The notes beneath the pieces were generated by a model. The model saw only the letters and a program-made list of their open reading frames with translations. It searched no databases and had not been told where the DNA came from. Positions 10,618-38,160 of a stretch of DNA of 38,950 nt are shown in pieces. The DNA is from Spirogloea muscicola (Eukaryota > Streptophyta > Zygnematophyceae > Spirogloeales > Spirogloeaceae): positions 285,240-324,189 of the forward strand of contig WELB01000118.1 of the NCBI GenBank assembly GCA_009602725.1. Direction: 5' to 3'. Numbering within the stretch: position 1 is the first letter of the stretch; every line of letters starts with the position of its first letter. The translations under genes were made by a program, and so were the position numbers.

Positions 10618-10945
10618 TGCCCGGCTTCAACGCCGCCGGGTCGCTCGCCCAGGTCTTTCGCATGCGCTTGGCGGTATCGTTCCAGCGATCCCTTGCCCAC
10701 GCTGTCCACACGCGCGCAGGACGCGCTCTGGCCGCGGCCTCCGGGTCTCGGCGGAGTGCCTCCTTCCCTGCCTCGAGCTACTCGGACCTGATGTTGCTCA
10801 CTCGCGGGTACTGAGCTTCCCTAGTATGTTGTCGTGATTGGTAGAGTAGAGGAGTCCTTCCTCGGCTTCTCATTCTTCGGCTTTGGACATTGTCCATTCT
10901 TTTTGGGCTGGCTTTGCCAGCCCCTCTTTCTTTATGGGCGAGCCT
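10618..10945 (+). mobile_element. family A LINE, 5'-truncated 3' end
   Basis: The last 65 or so codons of the family A protein are open: NAAGSLAQVFRMRLAVSF, then HTRAGRALAAASGS, ending SDLMLLTRGY and TGA at 10812-10814. The 3' UTR follows, with a GTGATTGGTAGAG block, ACATTGTCCATTC and a perfect 8-bp hairpin at 10905-10923 (arms GGGCTGGC/GCCAGCCC, loop TTT), then ATGGGCGAGCC. It lies upstream of the PPR gene in the opposite orientation. Confidence 0.85.
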
Positions 10946-11185
10946 TCCCCCCCGATACTGTAGTTTCCCGGCAGCTAGTCTGTCGGATTAAGAAGAAGGT
11001 GCTCGCCCAGAGAAGAATTTGGGGCTTCGTAGCTGCTTAGCTGCTAAGCAGCAGCTAGCGCTTTAGGCCCGCACGATTCGTTTTCTCTTTTCTTAGCGCT
11101 TCCCCTGGCTCCCTTCTCGTACTTTGTCCTCCTTTTTTGGGCTGGCTGTTCCAGCCCCTATCCTCAATGGGCGAGCTCTTTCTTC
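10946..11185 (+). mobile_element. stacked family A tail pieces
   Basis: Immediately after the preceding tail sits a short piece of another A 3' coding end (around 10966-10992, reading PAASLSD-like). An A 3' UTR at about 11070-11180 follows, with the boxes TTAGCGCTTCCCCTGG and CTCGTACTTTGTCC, the hairpin 11139-11157 and CAATGGGCGAGC. The order suggests repeated insertion next to existing tails. Confidence 0.7.
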
Positions 11186-11407
11186 TGCTGATATTGGAAG
11201 AGCGGCTGTAAAAGCCAGCCAGGTGCATAGAGACACACGAAAGCCAAATGGCCAAGTACAAAAGCAAGCACATCTGAAGACCTACATAACCTACAGCAGA
11301 TTGACCCGCTCAGTAACCACTGGTGAAAATAGAAAGGTCGCAATTCGATGCCTGAATTCTAGATGGCAGATACGAAGCCCTTCTGCTACCAACTAGAGCT
11401 CGCCCAG

Positions 11408-13455: not shown

Positions 13456-13604
13456 TGCTGTAGGTTATGTAGTCCTTTTCCGGCACCTCTTTCTTTGGCT
13501 TTGGCATGTATCAGGTCTTGCTGGCATGTTCCGTCATGTCTGTTTTCTATATAGGACATTGTCCATTCTTTTTGGGTTGGCTTTGCCAACCCTCTGCTCT
13601 AGAT
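13456..13604 (+). mobile_element. family A tail module inside B 3' UTR, hairpin with compensatory change
   Basis: About 145 bases of A-type 3' UTR without coding sequence: TCCTTTTCCGGCACCTC, GGACATTGTCCATTC, then the hairpin 13574-13592. Its arms are GGGTTGGC/GCCAACCC, so the usual C-G pair is replaced by T-A with pairing kept. No clear target-site duplication was found. Confidence 0.75.
13574..13592 (+). repeat. terminal hairpin with compensatory base pair
   Basis: GGGTTGGCTTTGCCAACCC has an 8-bp stem. The common form (10905-10923, 12895-12913) is GGGCTGGC-TTT-GCCAGCCC. The fourth pair changed from C-G to T-A on both sides, so pairing is kept. Confidence 0.85.
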
Positions 13605-13699
13605 GTGCTTGCCTTTGTACTTGGCCATTTGGCCTTCGTTTGTTTCAAATACACGAATTTTTTCAGAGAGCCACATTCTTGTTGCGACTGCTGGCCCTT

Positions 13700-16714: not shown

Positions 16715-17290
16715 GAAGTGGCACTCCCAATGGGGGCAAGGGCTGCGAAAAGCCAGCCCAAAAAGAATGCACAAAGGTTCAGAGGGGCCTAAGAGCGGTG
16801 AGCAGCTACAAAGGGGCCTGAGGATGCAATGGTAAAACAGGGGGAGGATGGATCACTCAATAAGTACGAGTGAGGAGCCTCAGATCCGACAGACTAGCTG
16901 CCGGGAAGCTATCACCCTGACGAAAGCCAGAGCCCGCAGCGAGAGCACGGCCAGCTCGCAGATGCAGAGCGTGGGCCATGATGGACCGCTGCAGGGATAC
17001 AGAGAGGCGCATCCGATATACCTGAGCCCACGAGCCCGCGGCGTTGAAGTCGGCTGGCTCGCCGCGTCTGCGGGACACAGCCCGCCGCGCAAGCCTAGCC
17101 AATAGGTCAAGCCACTGGGACCCAAGAGCCCCGTGCACGTCCACCGCCAAGGGGACGAACTCGTCGGCAGGTGGGTGATCGGAGTGCTTGGCCGCCTTGC
17201 AGCGAGCGGCCTTCGAGGCAGCGTGGCCGGCCCGCGAGGCAGAGAGCCCCAGGTTGGAGCGGTCGACCACATCGGTGGTGACTACTGAGC
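16715..17290 (-). mobile_element. family A LINE, nuclease to 3' UTR
   Basis: The coding part 17290-16857 reads VVTTDVVDRSN, KAAKHSDHPPADEFVPLAVD, VHGALGSQWLDLLARLARRA, DFNAAGSWAQVYRMRLSVSL and SDLRLLTRTY, then a stop. The nuclease core DVV plus Lys/His-Ser-Asp and the FVPLAVDVHGALG strand are intact. The 3' UTR 16856-16715 is the 170-bp type with hairpin 16740-16759 and a (TTC)n tail. It is one of the better A copies. Confidence 0.88.
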
Positions 17291-17645: not shown

Positions 17646-18690
17646 GAATGCGTGTATATCAAGAGATGGGGAGGCCATGTGTGGCCAAGTACAAAGGCAA
17701 GCACATTGGACAAATGTACGTCACCTGCTGCTAAGCTGACCCGCTCAGTAACCACGAGTCAGCACATAGAGGTCGCTAGCTGACGCTCGAATACCGGACG
17801 GCAATTGACTAGCTCTTGTGCCAGCAGCTAAGGCTCGACCAGCTTTCTGATGCAGAGCATACGCCTGAGCTCGTTGCAGACAGGTTGACACTCGACGTCG
17901 CAGAAATGACAGATAGGCTGCCGGCATACCCATCTGGGCTGGGAGCATATCCTCGCGTCGTGCATATCCCAGACTCGCTATGTTCTCGAGTAGGGTATGG
18001 AAGCGAGGACCCAAGCAGCCGAAAGTGTCGATTGCGGCCGGGAGGAGGTGGTCACTGCGGGGGTAGTCTGAGTAGTGTCGGAGCTTTTTCTGCTCAGCAC
18101 CTCCCACTGCGTGGCCAGCAATGTGTGTGGATGCGGAACTCTTGTATGCCTCAGTCACCACCACATCAACCAAAGCTCGTGGGCCTCCGCCAGGTTGTAC
18201 ACCCACACTGTCCAGGGTGCGACGGTGATGGCCTCCCTGGGAATCCGTGGTGATGGGCATTACATTGCTCACTTCAACGATGGCGCGGTAGCCGGCGTCG
18301 CACATCAAGCCCGCCAGGGCGTCCCGTAGAAGATTGTGGACGCCCACCACCTCAGGGCCTGTGGGACACCGCAGCATGTGGGTGGCTAGGTCTCCGCCCT
18401 CCGCACGGAAGCCACACACTGAGTTACTCCAATCAGGCAGGTCGGGGGCAGGCCCAGGAACAGCTGGAGTAGCGTCCGGAATGCTTCAGGGCTGACTTTG
18501 AAAGCGTTGTGGATTGCGTGTGTGGTGAGCCAATCCGTTGCCCCAGGCATTGCGAGCGATGTGAGACGTGCCAGACTCCTTGGATTGGTCTTGATATCCG
18601 GCATCGTCCTCAACGCCTTGCGACGCTCGTCCTCAACTGCCGCAACGAGTCTGGCCTGTGCCGCTGTGTCTGATGCTTGAGCAAGCGCTG
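17646..18690 (-). mobile_element. family B LINE, best-preserved copy (Cys knuckle + RLE + 3' UTR)
   Basis: From 18690 the minus strand reads AQARLVAAVEDERRKALRTM, LARLTSLAMPGATDWLTTHA, FRTLLQLFLGLPPTCLIG. After one small frameshift near 18422 the long frame 18419-17745 follows (224 codons). It contains CGFRAEGGDLATHMLRC, giving with the preceding Cys a C-x-C-x11-H-x3-C knuckle. Next is a nuclease core with D70-x14-D85 (LDSVGVQPGGGPRALVDVVV), K111-K112..Y116, and PAAIDTFGCLGPRFHTLL, ending SDLYVLTRGY. The 3' UTR 17744-17646 carries GGCCA-CACA-TGGCC and ends CTTGATATACACGCATTC. The arrangement matches restriction-like-endonuclease LINEs; the reverse transcriptase core is absent by 5' truncation. 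Confidence 0.9.
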
Positions 18691-18774
18691 AGAAGGGGGT
18701 GAGGAGGGGGTGACAAGCGGTGTGAGCGCGGCGAGCGCAGTCCAGAGACGCCTGACGCGGCGTCTCTGGCGGCC

Positions 18775-19275
18775 CTTATGCTCCGGTGCGCGCGGGGAGG
18801 GGAGCGGACCGGCACTCACGACCTGCTGCGGAATGCAATGTACGCATTTTCGTGGAGGCAGGTTACATGTGGCACTGGAAAACTCCAGCTCGGCGCGCCG
18901 GTCTCGTCGCCAGCGCTGGGCGGGGTGCCCCAGCTCATTGCAGACGTCGTCACCACAGACTGAATCGATTCCAGGAGCGCCCAAAGCTCGTCTTATTAGG
19001 AGGCGGGCTACGCAGTCCGCCAAGCGGCGGGCGTCAAAGAAAGGGAATGCTCCGATCACCCAGCGGGCGACGAGTTTGTCCTGCTCGCCGTCGACATCCA
19101 TGGAGCGTTTTGGATCCGGTGGCTCCACCTCCTGCAGCACCTTGCGAAGCGTTCAGTGGTTCGCCGCCAAGGGCAGCAGAGCGTGCAGCCCGGCTTCAAT
19201 GCCGCCGGGTCGCTTGCTCAAGTGTTCAGGATGCGCCTGGCCGTCTCTCTGCAGAGAGAAGGCGCGCGGTGCGCA
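18775..19275 (+). mobile_element. family A LINE fragment (knuckle to C-terminus, frameshifted)
   Basis: MLRCARGGERTGTHDLLRNA (18778 on) matches HVLRCSLGGERTAARDHLSDA. GGVPQLIADVVTTD is the second acidic strand. After a frame change, DHPAGDEFVLLAVDIHGAFW, LLQHLAKRSVVRR, GFNAAGSLAQVFRMRLAVSL follow, breaking off at 19275. There is no 3' UTR. Confidence 0.8.
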
Positions 19276-19487
19276 GGAAATTCAAAGGGAGGCCTACTCT
19301 AGGCTTACAAATGTCCTATTAACTGGGTAATGAGCTGGCTAATGGGGACACGAGTATTCCCGAGTGAGCACATGCATATCTGACAAGCTATACTGAGGAG
19401 CCAAATCACCACCGCGGAAGCCACTAGCCTGGGCTAATGCACGACCAGCACACTGGTGAATCGCGAGGGCCTGGGAGCGCTGCAGAC

Positions 19488-19790
19488 TCAATGATAGCCG
19501 CATTCTATAGCCTGCAGCATTCTCTTGCCTTTGCCGTCCACCTGCGTGCAGGCCGCGCCTTGGCTGCTGCCTCCTGGTTCTGTCAGGGCGACGTCTTTCC
19601 GCCCTCCAGCTATTCCGAAGTGCACTTGCTGACCAGAGGTTACTGAGAGCCTGCTTGCTGACGTCTTAGCGCTTAGTTATTTGCTTCTTGCGCCATCCGG
19701 CCCTTCAGACCTTGTCCATTCTTTGGGCTGGCTTCTCACAGCCACTGCTGTCAATCTGGAAGCGCTTTTCCCTTTCTTTCCCCGCAGGCG
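19488..19790 (+). mobile_element. family A LINE 3' end with UTR
   Basis: FAVHLRAGRALAAASWFCQG, ending SEVHLLTRGY and TGA at 19644-19646. The 3' UTR has TTAGCGCTTAG, CTTGTCCATTC, the hairpin 19726-19743 (GGCTG/CAGCC) and a CCCTTTCTTTCCCC tail. Confidence 0.8.
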
Positions 19791-20261: not shown

Positions 20262-21625
20262 CTAAGCAGAAAGGGCTCGCCCATTGAGGATAGGGGCTGG
20301 AAAAGCCAGCCCAAAAAAGAATGAACAAAGTACGAGAAGGGGGCCAGGGGAAGAGCTAAGAAAAACAAGCACACAAAGAAACAAAGCAGCTACGAAGCAC
20401 TCAGTAACCCCTGCTAAGCAGCCTCAAGTCAGAGAAGCTGGGCTCCTGGAAGCGGGTCCCCTGGCCAGAGCCAGAGGCAGCAGCGAGGGCTCTGCCGGCA
20501 CACAGGTGCAGCGCGCGGGCCATAGACCGCTGCAGCGAGACGGCCAAGCGCATCCGGTACACCTGCGCTAGCAACCCGGCTGCAGAATAGTCCACCGGCT
20601 CCCCATGGAAGCTGCGGACGATGGCGTGGCGGGCGAGCTGGTTGAGCAGCTCGAGCCACCGAGCGCCCAACGCCCCATGCGTGTCGATAGCCAGCGGGAA
20701 GAACTCGTCTTCCTGTGGATGATCAGCATATTTGAGCTCCTTGGCCTGAGCGACGCAGGCGACCGCATACCTAGCCTTGGTGGCACATTGGGCTGGGTGT
20801 CAGCGGTCGTATTCGTCAGTGGTCACCACGTCCAGGATAAGATGTGGCCCGCCGGCTTGTGGGGTGGCCACAAGGTCTACGCGACGAGCGTGGAGACCGT
20901 CGGCCCTTTGCTGGAGCGGCATGACGGCGGAGTTCTCCGCTGCCACCGAGAAGCCAGCCTCCACCAGGATGCCATTGATCGCATCCGAAAGGTGGTCTCG
21001 AGCCGCTGTCCGCTCTCCGCCGAGGGAACAGCGCAGAACATGAGCGGCCAGCTCCCCAGGCTTGGCCCCTCGCTTGACACATTCACATTGACGCAAATCC
21101 TGGAGACATGGTGGCGGCAGCCCCAGGAGCCGGTGGACGGCACTGGGGAATACCTCATCCGGGAGAGTGAGGGCGTCGTTGAGGGGGAGGGCCTGGAGCC
21201 ACGCCGCTGCCCCCGAGGAAGAGGCCGAGTGGAGTCTCGCGCGCCCGCGCAGGTCGGCCTCCGGGAGCTGCTGCAAGGAGGTGGTGAAGGCTGCCTTGTC
21301 CATCGCGGCTGCGAAGCGCGCTTGGACGCGCAGGTCGGCGGTGTGCGCGAGGTGCGCAATGGAGACCGCCTGGCCCGCCGATCCGGGTGCGCCGCGAGTA
21401 GCTCCTGGTGGGCGGAGCGTAGCGACGCCTGGAAAGGCAGCACACCCGTGTCTACCTCCACCACCGCCTGCTCCAGCGCACGCCGGCCGTTCGTGGACCA
21501 AGAAAGGCTGGGCCACGGAGGCAGCTGTCTATGCCCAGCTGCCGAGGTACGCCGCCCGGCAGGAACTGACGAGCGGGCGCAAGCCGAGACCGCCGTAACT
21601 GAGGGGTAGCGTCGCCTGATGAAGA
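20262..21625 (-). mobile_element. family A LINE, best-preserved copy (RT end + Cys knuckle + RLE + 3' UTR)
   Basis: A single frame runs from about 21625 to the stop at 20401-20403, broken only by TAG at 21529-21531 and TGA at 20800-20802. In order: ATLPLSYGGLGLRPLVSSCR (GGLGLR, near the end of the RT/thumb region), [27 protein letters not shown], the knuckle C-x-C-x12-H-x3-C (CECVKRG to HVLRC), RRVDLVATPQAGGPHLILDV (D-x14-D, same spacing as family B), AKELKYADHPQEDEFFPLAI (Lys/Tyr strand), DTHGALGARWLELLNQLARH and SDLRLLSRGY. Another A copy has TCC where the TGA lies (near 38763), so the stop is a point lesion. The 3' UTR has TTAGCTCTTCCCCTGGCCCC, hairpin 20294-20312 and GGGCGAGCCCTTTC. This is the reference copy for family A. 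Confidence 0.92.
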
Positions 21626-21644
21626 GCGGCAGGCGACTAAATCC

Positions 21645-21898: not shown

Positions 21899-22272
21899 GG
21901 TGGCAGAAGGGCTTCGTATTCCACCCAGCCCAGTGTGCAACCAAGCCTGGGTATGCGGTCGCCTGCGCCGCTCGTGCCAAAGAACTCAAGTACGCAGACC
22001 ATCCGCCAGCTGACGAGTTCTTCCCGCTGGCCATCGACACACACGGGGCGTTGGGTGCTCGGTGGCTCGAACTGCTCCACCAGCTTGCCCGTCACGCTGC
22101 CGTCGCCCGCCGCTTCCATGGGGAGCCGGTGGACTTCCCTGCAGCTGGGTCGCTCGCCCAGGTGTACCGCGTGCGCCTGGCCGTCTCGCTGCAGAGGTCA
22201 ATGGCCCGTGCGCTGCACCTGCGTGCCGGCCGAGCCCTCGCTGCTGCCTCTGGCTCTGGCCAGGGGACATAC
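21899..22272 (+). mobile_element. B-A junction and family A fragment lacking its 3' end
   Basis: About 24 bases of B (GGTGGCAGAAGGGCTTCGTA, as at 33529) are fused to an open A frame. It reads HPAQCATKPGYAVACAARAK, KYADHPPADEFFPLAIDTHG, ALGARWLELLHQLARHAAVA, AAGSLAQVYRVRLAVSLQRS and RAGRALAAASGSGQGT. At 22272 it stops 15 or so codons short and continues as an A-rich stretch (ACAAAAACAAAAAACACAC). Losing the 3' end is unusual for a LINE copy. Confidence 0.85.
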
Positions 22273-22800
22273 TACACAAAAACAAAAAACACACAGCTAG
22301 GCAGCTAGACAACAAGGCCCCCTTATCTTTGCGCTAGTTTTTGTCTGAACAATGTATTGGCTTGAATTGGCCTCGCTTTAATTTCATGCGCACCGCGCGC
22401 CTTCTCTCTTTTAGAGCTCGATTGTCGCCCATGTGCTACGCCCGGCTTCTGGCCCTGCGATCGGCCAATATCGACGTCTCAGAGTTGCCGGTGACACGAG
22501 GCGCAGATCGAGGGGCGACGTTGCCTCGGAGGCCCAATTCTCAATTCCTGAAGCTCTTCCGCGAAACAAAAGTTGCTACCGACGCAGCCGACATCCAAAC
22601 AAAAGCGGCGGTGACGGCGGCGGCTGCGGCTGCGGCGGCGGCGGCGGCGGCGGCGGCGCGGCAGCAGAGCGAGGAGGCTTGCGGAGGCATTGTGTGAGGG
22701 TCTATAGCGTGGCCTGCGCAGCGGCACTGGTCGTCGGCTGAAACCCAGGGCGCAAGCTCGCATGAGCAGCAACGGGAGCGGGCTAGGGACAGAGAGGGCC
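22273..22800. other. no firm gene; GCG triplet repeat
   Basis: A plus-strand frame ending at 22697 contains about 15 consecutive Ala codons from a (GCG)n tract at 22611-22660. It may be the 5' UTR of a downstream gene. No family is recognised. Confidence 0.35.
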
Positions 22801-37779: not shown

Positions 37780-38145
37780 TTTTTTAGGGGCTGGCCTCTC
37801 ACAAGCCTCGCCCCTCGTCAGCTTGTCTGCAGCGAGCTCAGGCTCATGCGTTGCACCAGAAAGCTGGTCGAGCCTTAGCTGGTAGTTCAAGAGCTTGTCG
37901 ATTGCCGTTTGGTATTCGAGCATCAGCTAGCGACCTCTATGTGCTGACTCGTGGTTACTGAGCGGGTCAGCTTAGCGTACTTTGTCCATTCTTTTTTGGG
38001 CTGGCTGTTCCAGCCCCTATCCTCAATGGGCGAGCTCTTTCCTCTTAGCAGCAGGTGACGTACATTTGTCAATGTGCTTGCCTTTGTACTTGGCCACACA
38101 TGGCCTCCCCATCTCTTAGTACACGCGCATTCTTTCAGGGTTTAG
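37780..38145 (+). mobile_element. family B LINE 3' end, 3' UTR split by an A module
   Basis: After a decayed hairpin (about 37789-37812), B coding traces (with a frameshift) run to ASDLYVLTRGY and TGA at 37960-37962. The 3' UTR GCGGGTCAGCTTAGC is split at 37977, resumes at 38044 with CTTAGCAGCAGGTGACGTAC and continues through GGCCA-CACA-TGGCC (38092-38105) to CTTAGTACACGCGCATTC. Confidence 0.85.
37971..38049 (+). mobile_element. 67-bp family A module with 6-bp target-site duplication
   Basis: CTTAGC at 37971-37976 is repeated at 38044-38049. Between them, 37977-38043 holds only GTACTTTGTCCATTC, hairpin 37998-38016 and CAATGGGCGAGCTCTTTCCT. The empty site GCTTAGCAGCAGGTGACGTA exists in the B copies at 17.7 kb and 12.4 kb (minus strand). 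This is an extreme 5'-truncated insertion that isolates the A 3' terminus. Confidence 0.85.
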
Positions 38146-38160
38146 GGTTTTCGCTTGTAG
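38146..38160 (+). repeat. short telomere-like motif
   Basis: AGGGTTTAGGGTTTT holds two units of the plant-type telomere heptamer TTTAGGG. Two units are too few to indicate a chromosome end; it could equally be a telo-box. Confidence 0.7.

Follow-up and report, generated by a model that had tools for sequence, protein, structure and literature searches.

Non-LTR retrotransposons (LINEs) that carry a restriction-like (RLE) nuclease are held to have a deeper origin and to be mostly tied to fixed sites, and five RLE clades besides Dualen are named in the same account (PMC4640811). As summarized there, Utopia is reported from Amoebozoa, SAR and Opisthokonta, with Archaeplastida not among the groups given (PMC4640811). 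The LINEs named for green algae in the accounts we drew on are either of L1 type or are Dualen elements, which combine an APE and an RLE nuclease (PMC3636483, PMC8226300), and both L1 and Dualen LINEs are described from relatives of Chlamydomonas (PMC8226300). Within the open-licence PMC literature, we found no description of RLE-only LINEs of green algae.

Here, we analyse a window of 38,950 nucleotides (the whole stretch of DNA studied, C118:285240-324189 of a 153-Mb assembly of 471 contigs) and find that two families in it, A and B, are very probably the dead, 5'-truncated 3' ends of a lineage of RLE-type LINEs, whose intact element has a single frame, most likely moves by target-primed reverse transcription and so far shows no fixed target. 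The kind of element is known; what is new is the spacing of its zinc knuckle, its host and its dispersal. A search of the host genome gave 68 matches to the chlorophyll a/b-binding family, and one host exon strongly matches chlorophyll a/b LHCII proteins; the host is therefore a green (chlorophyll a/b) organism, perhaps one whose green plastid is secondary.

RLE-LINE remnants in the window

The family A copy lies on the minus strand at 20264..21638 and comprises linker, knuckle, RLE and 3' UTR, as established by BLASTN to four longer relatives (L011, L012, L013 and L062) and by tblastn to residues 858-1271 of the A protein. It is 88.7% identical to L011 over 1,374 columns (21638-20268) and 86.6% identical to L013, in which the match extends to 20264. 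The first-pass annotation, which had placed a minus-strand LINE at about 20262-21625, was thus confirmed with slightly shifted ends (21638-20268), as were all of the motifs named for it. From the 5' side of the element these are GGLGLR after the reverse transcriptase (RT; 21577..21594), which is conserved in the RT-to-RLE alignment; the C-x-C-x12-H-x3-C knuckle (21028..21087), also present in the frames of the full-length relatives; R-V-D-x14-D (20830..20883), which by predicted structure and alignment forms beta2 and beta3 of the nuclease; KELKY (20728..20742), a KX2KY motif of R2 type with the predicted catalytic Lys in the second helix, by the same evidence; and the strand motif IDTHGALGARW (20656-20688). 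The protein ends in LLSRGY and is followed by a 3' UTR (20264..20403) with the sequence GGGCTGG..CCAGCCC conserved at 20294-20312 and a CTTTCT-rich 3' end without poly(A), a tail shared by other A copies. Two in-frame stops, TAG at 21529-21531 and TGA at 20800-20802, disable the copy, and its frame is shifted and then restored by small indels, one near 21491 and one near 21380.

The family B copy (17647..18712, minus strand) is also 5'-truncated and matches L009 with 98.5% identity over 1,070 columns, with 4 gap positions and 12 mismatches. Of its earlier description, as a minus-strand element at about 17646-18690, the place (18712-17647), the D-x14-D, the K...Y and the strand motif stand, but the intact C-x-C does not: a 4-bp deletion within the zinc knuckle breaks the window copy and leaves the second half, C-x11-H-x3-C (18366..18416), and L009 and L056 retain the complete motif. 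The alignment places the RLE motif T-L-D-x14-D at 18165..18218 and KKLRHY, with the predicted catalytic Lys, at 18072..18089; IDTFGCLGPRF follows at 18000-18032, all on the minus strand, and the protein ends in VLTRGY. The 3' UTR of about 100 bp (17647..17747) ends near ATACACGCATT and contains GGCCACACATGGCC at 17673-17686. A GGLGLR-type RT end had been ascribed to A only; this is true of the window copies but not of the families, as B has GGLGCR upstream of the point of truncation.

Further pieces of the same kind surround these two copies. Using eleven frames as tblastn queries we find 23 RLE-LINE pieces covering 6,136 bases of the window, some of which overlap one another or are parts of one copy; one (13598-13684) pairs with a section of the L056 frame upstream of the finger and may be non-element. 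They include the tail of a third family, D (16860..17285, minus strand), for which 150 matches were scored of 19,872 rough candidates in the genome and whose window copy ends in LLTRTY rather than (L/V)L(S/T)RGY; a fragment 49.5% identical to family G (18718..19257, plus strand); a tail 71% identical to family E (19354..19527, minus strand); and a tail 86% identical to A3 (21922..22299, plus strand), on the strand opposite to A. About 300 bp from the latter, at 22613-22662, lies a GC-rich triplet repeat that reads as Ala or Arg runs depending on the frame. Very short tails are also present in the window, and SINE-like elements might be among them.

Full-length relatives, reverse transcriptase and nuclease

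Full-length elements with an RT, which the first-pass annotation had proposed to seek, do occur in the genome. With the C-terminal part of A as query, 150 scored matches were listed of 5,418 rough candidates, and with that of B 151 of 16,584. The longer relatives have a single stop-to-stop frame, mostly of 1,270-1,430 residues. Family B is represented by L009 and L010, whose 1,267-residue frame belongs to an element about 3.95 kb long; frames of exactly this length recur in 9 of the listed matches to the B C-terminal part, and 12 of the 108 RT matches of B are identical across all 380 residues. Over 3,954 bp the identity of L009 to L010 is 99.8%, and the spread of B is therefore recent. Relatives of A are L011 (1,338 residues), L012, L013, L062 and L061, and the same layout is found in families E (L058, and the shorter L059 with 1,166 residues), F (L060), B' (L056) and H (L063, 952 residues, which stops before the knuckle). 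For family D, two loci were retrieved as possible full-length copies, L054 and L055, and both consist mostly of N.

The shared layout runs from one or two N-terminal fingers (C-x2-C-x(11-12)-H-x3-C) through a conserved stretch of predicted helices, the RT, a GGLG-like motif, the linker, the knuckle, D-x14-D and K...Y to the (L/V)L(S/T)RGY end. The knuckle, C-x-C-x(11-12)-H-x3-C, is present in all ten frames that reach that region, and each of its four ligands in 23-24 of the 25 rows of the RLE alignment that cover it. All knuckle-reaching frames close with (L/V)L(S/T)RGY save L012, whose frame continues past it, so that the knuckle and the RGY end, proposed earlier as a mark of the group, hold as such, with the LLTRTY of the window D copy as a variant. 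In the two full-length frames scanned against Pfam, PF00078 (RT) matches at E 1e-18 and 3.3e-16, C2HC/C2H2 fingers appear below the cut-off, and neither a Myb nor an APE model matches at E up to 5. An APE upstream of the RT would have spoken against the first-pass reading; genome-wide, PF14529 gave no matches and PF03372 gave 10, with a longest open frame of 552 aa, in a type of search that weak or missing repeats can escape. On these scans an APE-type or dual-nuclease LINE was rejected as an identity for A and B.

The view of A and B as two sister families had to be given up. They are 44-45% identical in the RT-to-RLE alignment and lie furthest apart in a midpoint-rooted tree of 11 frames. 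In that tree the two B rows have a branch of 0.84 to themselves, with support of 100/100; A falls together with A3 and G, E pairs with H, and F, whose row is long, has no partner. A separate genome search with RVT_1, in which 150 of 985 candidates were scored, was set aside; among the scored candidates we noticed none that coincided with an A or B copy whose position was known, and three of its strong matches (L064-L066) are by eye Gypsy-type LTR elements with frames of more than 1,000 residues. Neither IMG/VR contigs (queried with part of A) nor phage records (queried with B) contained relatives, a result that says little because these collections hold few eukaryotes.

The LINE identity of A and B is borne out by the RT of the longer relatives. 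When ten RT-to-RLE frames are combined into a profile, its best matches are R2Tg (2.6e-11) and the R2 of Platysternon (2.8e-9), and it is thus closer to the R2 of two vertebrates than to LINE-1 (1.8e-5); R2Bm follows at 6.1e-5, a retron-type RT at 0.0091 and a group II RT at 0.027. Taken alone, the A protein has R2 proteins as its three best matches (4.8e-7 to 1.6e-6). Two results speak against an R2 affinity: group II and retron-type RTs are the best PDB matches of the B protein alone, and NCBIfam group II RT models match below cut-off, at E 1.1e-10 (B), 2.9e-4 (A) and 5.5e-8 (F).

For the nuclease we turned to structure because searches by sequence alone had given nothing useful: the RLE region has no PDB match at E up to 10, and against Pfam only four families matched, each in one of 28 members, at E 0.04-0.22. 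An AlphaFold model of the domain predicted from 28 copies has a mean pLDDT of 66, rising to 82-91 in the nuclease core, and is ordered as helix, strands, helix and strand. All seven Foldseek matches with E <= 0.001 are R2. In VIA-align, seven R2 chains align at Z 14.8-16.5 (rmsd 2.8-3.9 over 193-221 residues), the next chain reaches Z 8.0, and Prp8 is at Z 7.9. In model numbering, E185 is present in 28 of 28 copies, D205, the first Asp, in 27, D220, the second, also in 27 (the remaining one being a gap), and K250, the first Lys of KX2KY, in all 28, with the Tyr of that motif in 21. These Asp and Lys positions fit those that the literature names for R2-type nucleases (PMC5678591). By prediction, then, the nuclease is of the R2 restriction-like type with a PD-(D/E)XK fold; the R2/RLE layout suggested by the first-pass annotation is upheld by fold, structural matches and residues, and the C-terminal similarity to PD-(D/E)XK nucleases, whose absence would have counted against it, is found in the model. 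A longer model of RT, linker and RLE is weak (pLDDT 56): Foldseek lists seven R2 chains first with TM-scores of only 0.16-0.18, and VIA-align gives R2 11.4 vs 11.1 for G2L4, leaving R2 not separated from other RTs. The predicted RLE is better judged from the domain model.

Tails, insertion sites and spread

None of the 3' UTRs that we looked at has a poly(A). The exact A-type tail pattern has 1,764 matches in the genome and the exact B-type 23-mer tail 1,734, and the reversed patterns have none; together with the 150 and 151 listed protein matches and the 23 tblastn pieces in the window, this bears out that the resemblance goes beyond chance. The exact-tail places that were listed, first places only, lie on C1-C5, and protein matches of A and B are found on many contigs. 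The tails of A, G and A3 with the GGGCTGG..CCAGCCC element fold better than shuffled sequences (z -3.3, -2.4 and -3.0, respectively), an advantage that the B tail lacks (z -0.92). Across 44 A- and D-type tails, picked by eye from 125 candidate stretches of which many were non-tails, the six-pair stem is nearly unchanged and the hairpin contains 0 compensatory pairs; since the stem has no compensatory change, an RNA structure of the tail is not proved.

A similar tail, TTGTYCATTC-T(n)-GGGCTGG-loop-CAGCC, often with a CTTTCTTCT end, is common to several families, with examples in the window at 10880-10954, 11114-11188 and 37973-38047. The B-type tail at 38044-38131 stops three bases short of TTCAGGGTTTAGGG at 38134, which resembles two telomere (TTTAGGG) units apart from a single mismatch (window 38044-38147).

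Junctions were examined in 25 copies, 20 fetched in pieces (L014-L053) and five as longer loci (L009-L013); at least one end is readable in 24 of them and both ends in 12. Compared among themselves, the flanks of the 24 copies differ from one another apart from shared upstream stretches. No position of 15 is fixed in the 9 of 9 B copies and 11 of 16 A copies aligned for a target motif. A T occupies position 3 in 9 of these 11 A copies, which we think reflects slippage at the tail. The longest word common to both flanks of a copy has a mean length of 5.9, vs 4.7 for 60 mismatched pairs. The target specificity that the layout had suggested to the first-pass annotation is thus not supported, as far as tested: no shared motif was seen and the 3' flanks of copies differ.

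Only one target duplication was compared with an empty site. On C195, an A copy is inserted inside the 3' UTR of another A; it is flanked by the 8-bp duplication GAAACAAA, its 5' junction carries 22 additional bases, and other A copies show the site uninterrupted (21 listed matches, of which some come from overlapping loci). Some A copies share sequence beyond their usual 5' end (loci L071, L072, L011, L069 and L070): those on C135, C66 and C453 have 349, 349 and 314 bp of upstream sequence in common, and those on C20 and C338 have 1,346 bp, with different 3' flanks in both groups. These stretches look as if they were read-in transcripts (5' transduction) or segmental copies. Two smaller features of B flanks may be recorded here: the 5' leader of one copy (L014, C151:304449-304909) contains some 28 bp that look like the F tail and are accompanied by a repeat of 4-5 bp, and TTTAGGGTTTAGGG occurs at position 757 of the upstream flank of L009.

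How could such elements move? The intact element comprises, in order, a short 5' leader, one or more C2HC zinc fingers, the RT, a linker with the C-x-C zinc knuckle, the R2-type nuclease and a short 3' UTR without poly(A). Its nuclease would nick the target DNA, and the freed 3' end would act as primer for the RT, with the element RNA copied from its 3' end; the conserved tail may aid recognition. Synthesis would frequently halt early, and a second nick would leave a short target duplication. Catalysis, the order of these steps and the part played by the tail are what we infer.

Comparison with described LINEs

Where do these elements belong? It is quite possible, though short of probable, that they represent a further clade, as yet undescribed, made up of RLE-only LINEs of green (chlorophyll a/b) organisms. 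Its marks would be the C2HC fingers, the C-x-C knuckle and the (L/V)L(S/T)RGY end; it would have dropped target specificity and, with seven or more families (A, B, D, E, F, G and H), would have become an abundant dispersed repeat of the host. That they belong instead to a named RLE clade (NeSL/Utopia, HERO, R4, CRE or R2), in a host previously unreported for it, is a reading to which we give a little under an even chance. The described layout of Utopia, with zinc finger(s) at the N terminus followed by RT, a single zinc finger and RLE, agrees with it, HERO includes many non-specific elements (PMC4640811), and the solved structures nearest to both RT and RLE are those of R2, the sole RLE LINE that we met among them. 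The knuckle, however, has the spacing CX1CX11-12HX3C in 10 frames and does not match the published consensus CX2-3CX7-8HX4C (PMC5678591), the reported range of Utopia is confined to the three groups named above, and the flanks of 24 of the 25 copies, compared with one another, differ. The knuckle spacing bars a plain filing under the published consensus; it does not bar an R2-like way of working.

Two other explanations carry far less weight for us. Elements like Dualen/RandI, with both APE and RLE, would suit a host with chlorophyll a/b light-harvesting genes, and Dualen families were present in every species compared in one account (PMC8226300), but with no APE in the two full-length frames scanned and the genome-wide results for PF03372 and PF14529 given above, sensitive though these are to weak or missing repeats, we regard this as very improbable. 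That the sequences are domesticated or cellular genes, with a Prp8-like RT plus RLE, is almost certainly wrong: Prp8 does combine RT, linker and RLE (PMC5678591) and aligns with the RLE model at the Z noted above, but the Z of R2 is about twice as high, and the truncated copies, which are very numerous, are at odds with a single conserved locus, as are the nested insertions, the target duplication and the near-identical long copies.

An undescribed clade or not, RLE-only elements that were recently active, number many hundreds of copies and have no visible target can be used to ask in what way the target of an R2-like nuclease is lost, and whether site-free RLE LINEs have had more than one origin. 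They may also be a source of natural R2-like proteins with relaxed targeting for study. Similar predicted RTs with knuckle and KX2KY presumably occur in land plants and cnidarians as well, which we take as a lead only.

The closest system with solved structures is R2 of Taeniopygia, Platysternon and Bombyx (PDB 9dou, 9nl3, 9nl2, 8gh6, 8ibw, 8iby, 8ibz), the R2 of these three animals being the only RLE LINE proteins that we met in the PDB. It has the same order of N-terminal zinc finger, RT, linker, knuckle and C-terminal RLE, and the likeness extends to the predicted RLE fold and the first Lys of KX2KY in every row. In contrast, RLE identity is just 15-18%, the elements described here have C2HC fingers without a Myb model match and a differently spaced knuckle, and the R2 clade proper inserts at one 28S rDNA site, whereas the flanks read here differ among copies. 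Utopia and NeSL share the one to three N-terminal fingers, the RT, and the finger with RLE (PMC4640811), but insert at U2, spliced-leader or other fixed targets, and the 9 B and 11 A copies showed no common target; HERO elements, RLE LINEs of which many are without a fixed site (PMC4640811), are similar by description. Among the LINEs of green algae, Dualen/RandI bears an RLE as here but carries an APE too (PMC3636483, PMC8226300). Zepp and ZeppL show nested insertions and many short 3' tails, as here, but are L1 elements clustered at centromeres (PMC8226300), whereas the elements of the present host are of RLE type and spread over many contigs.
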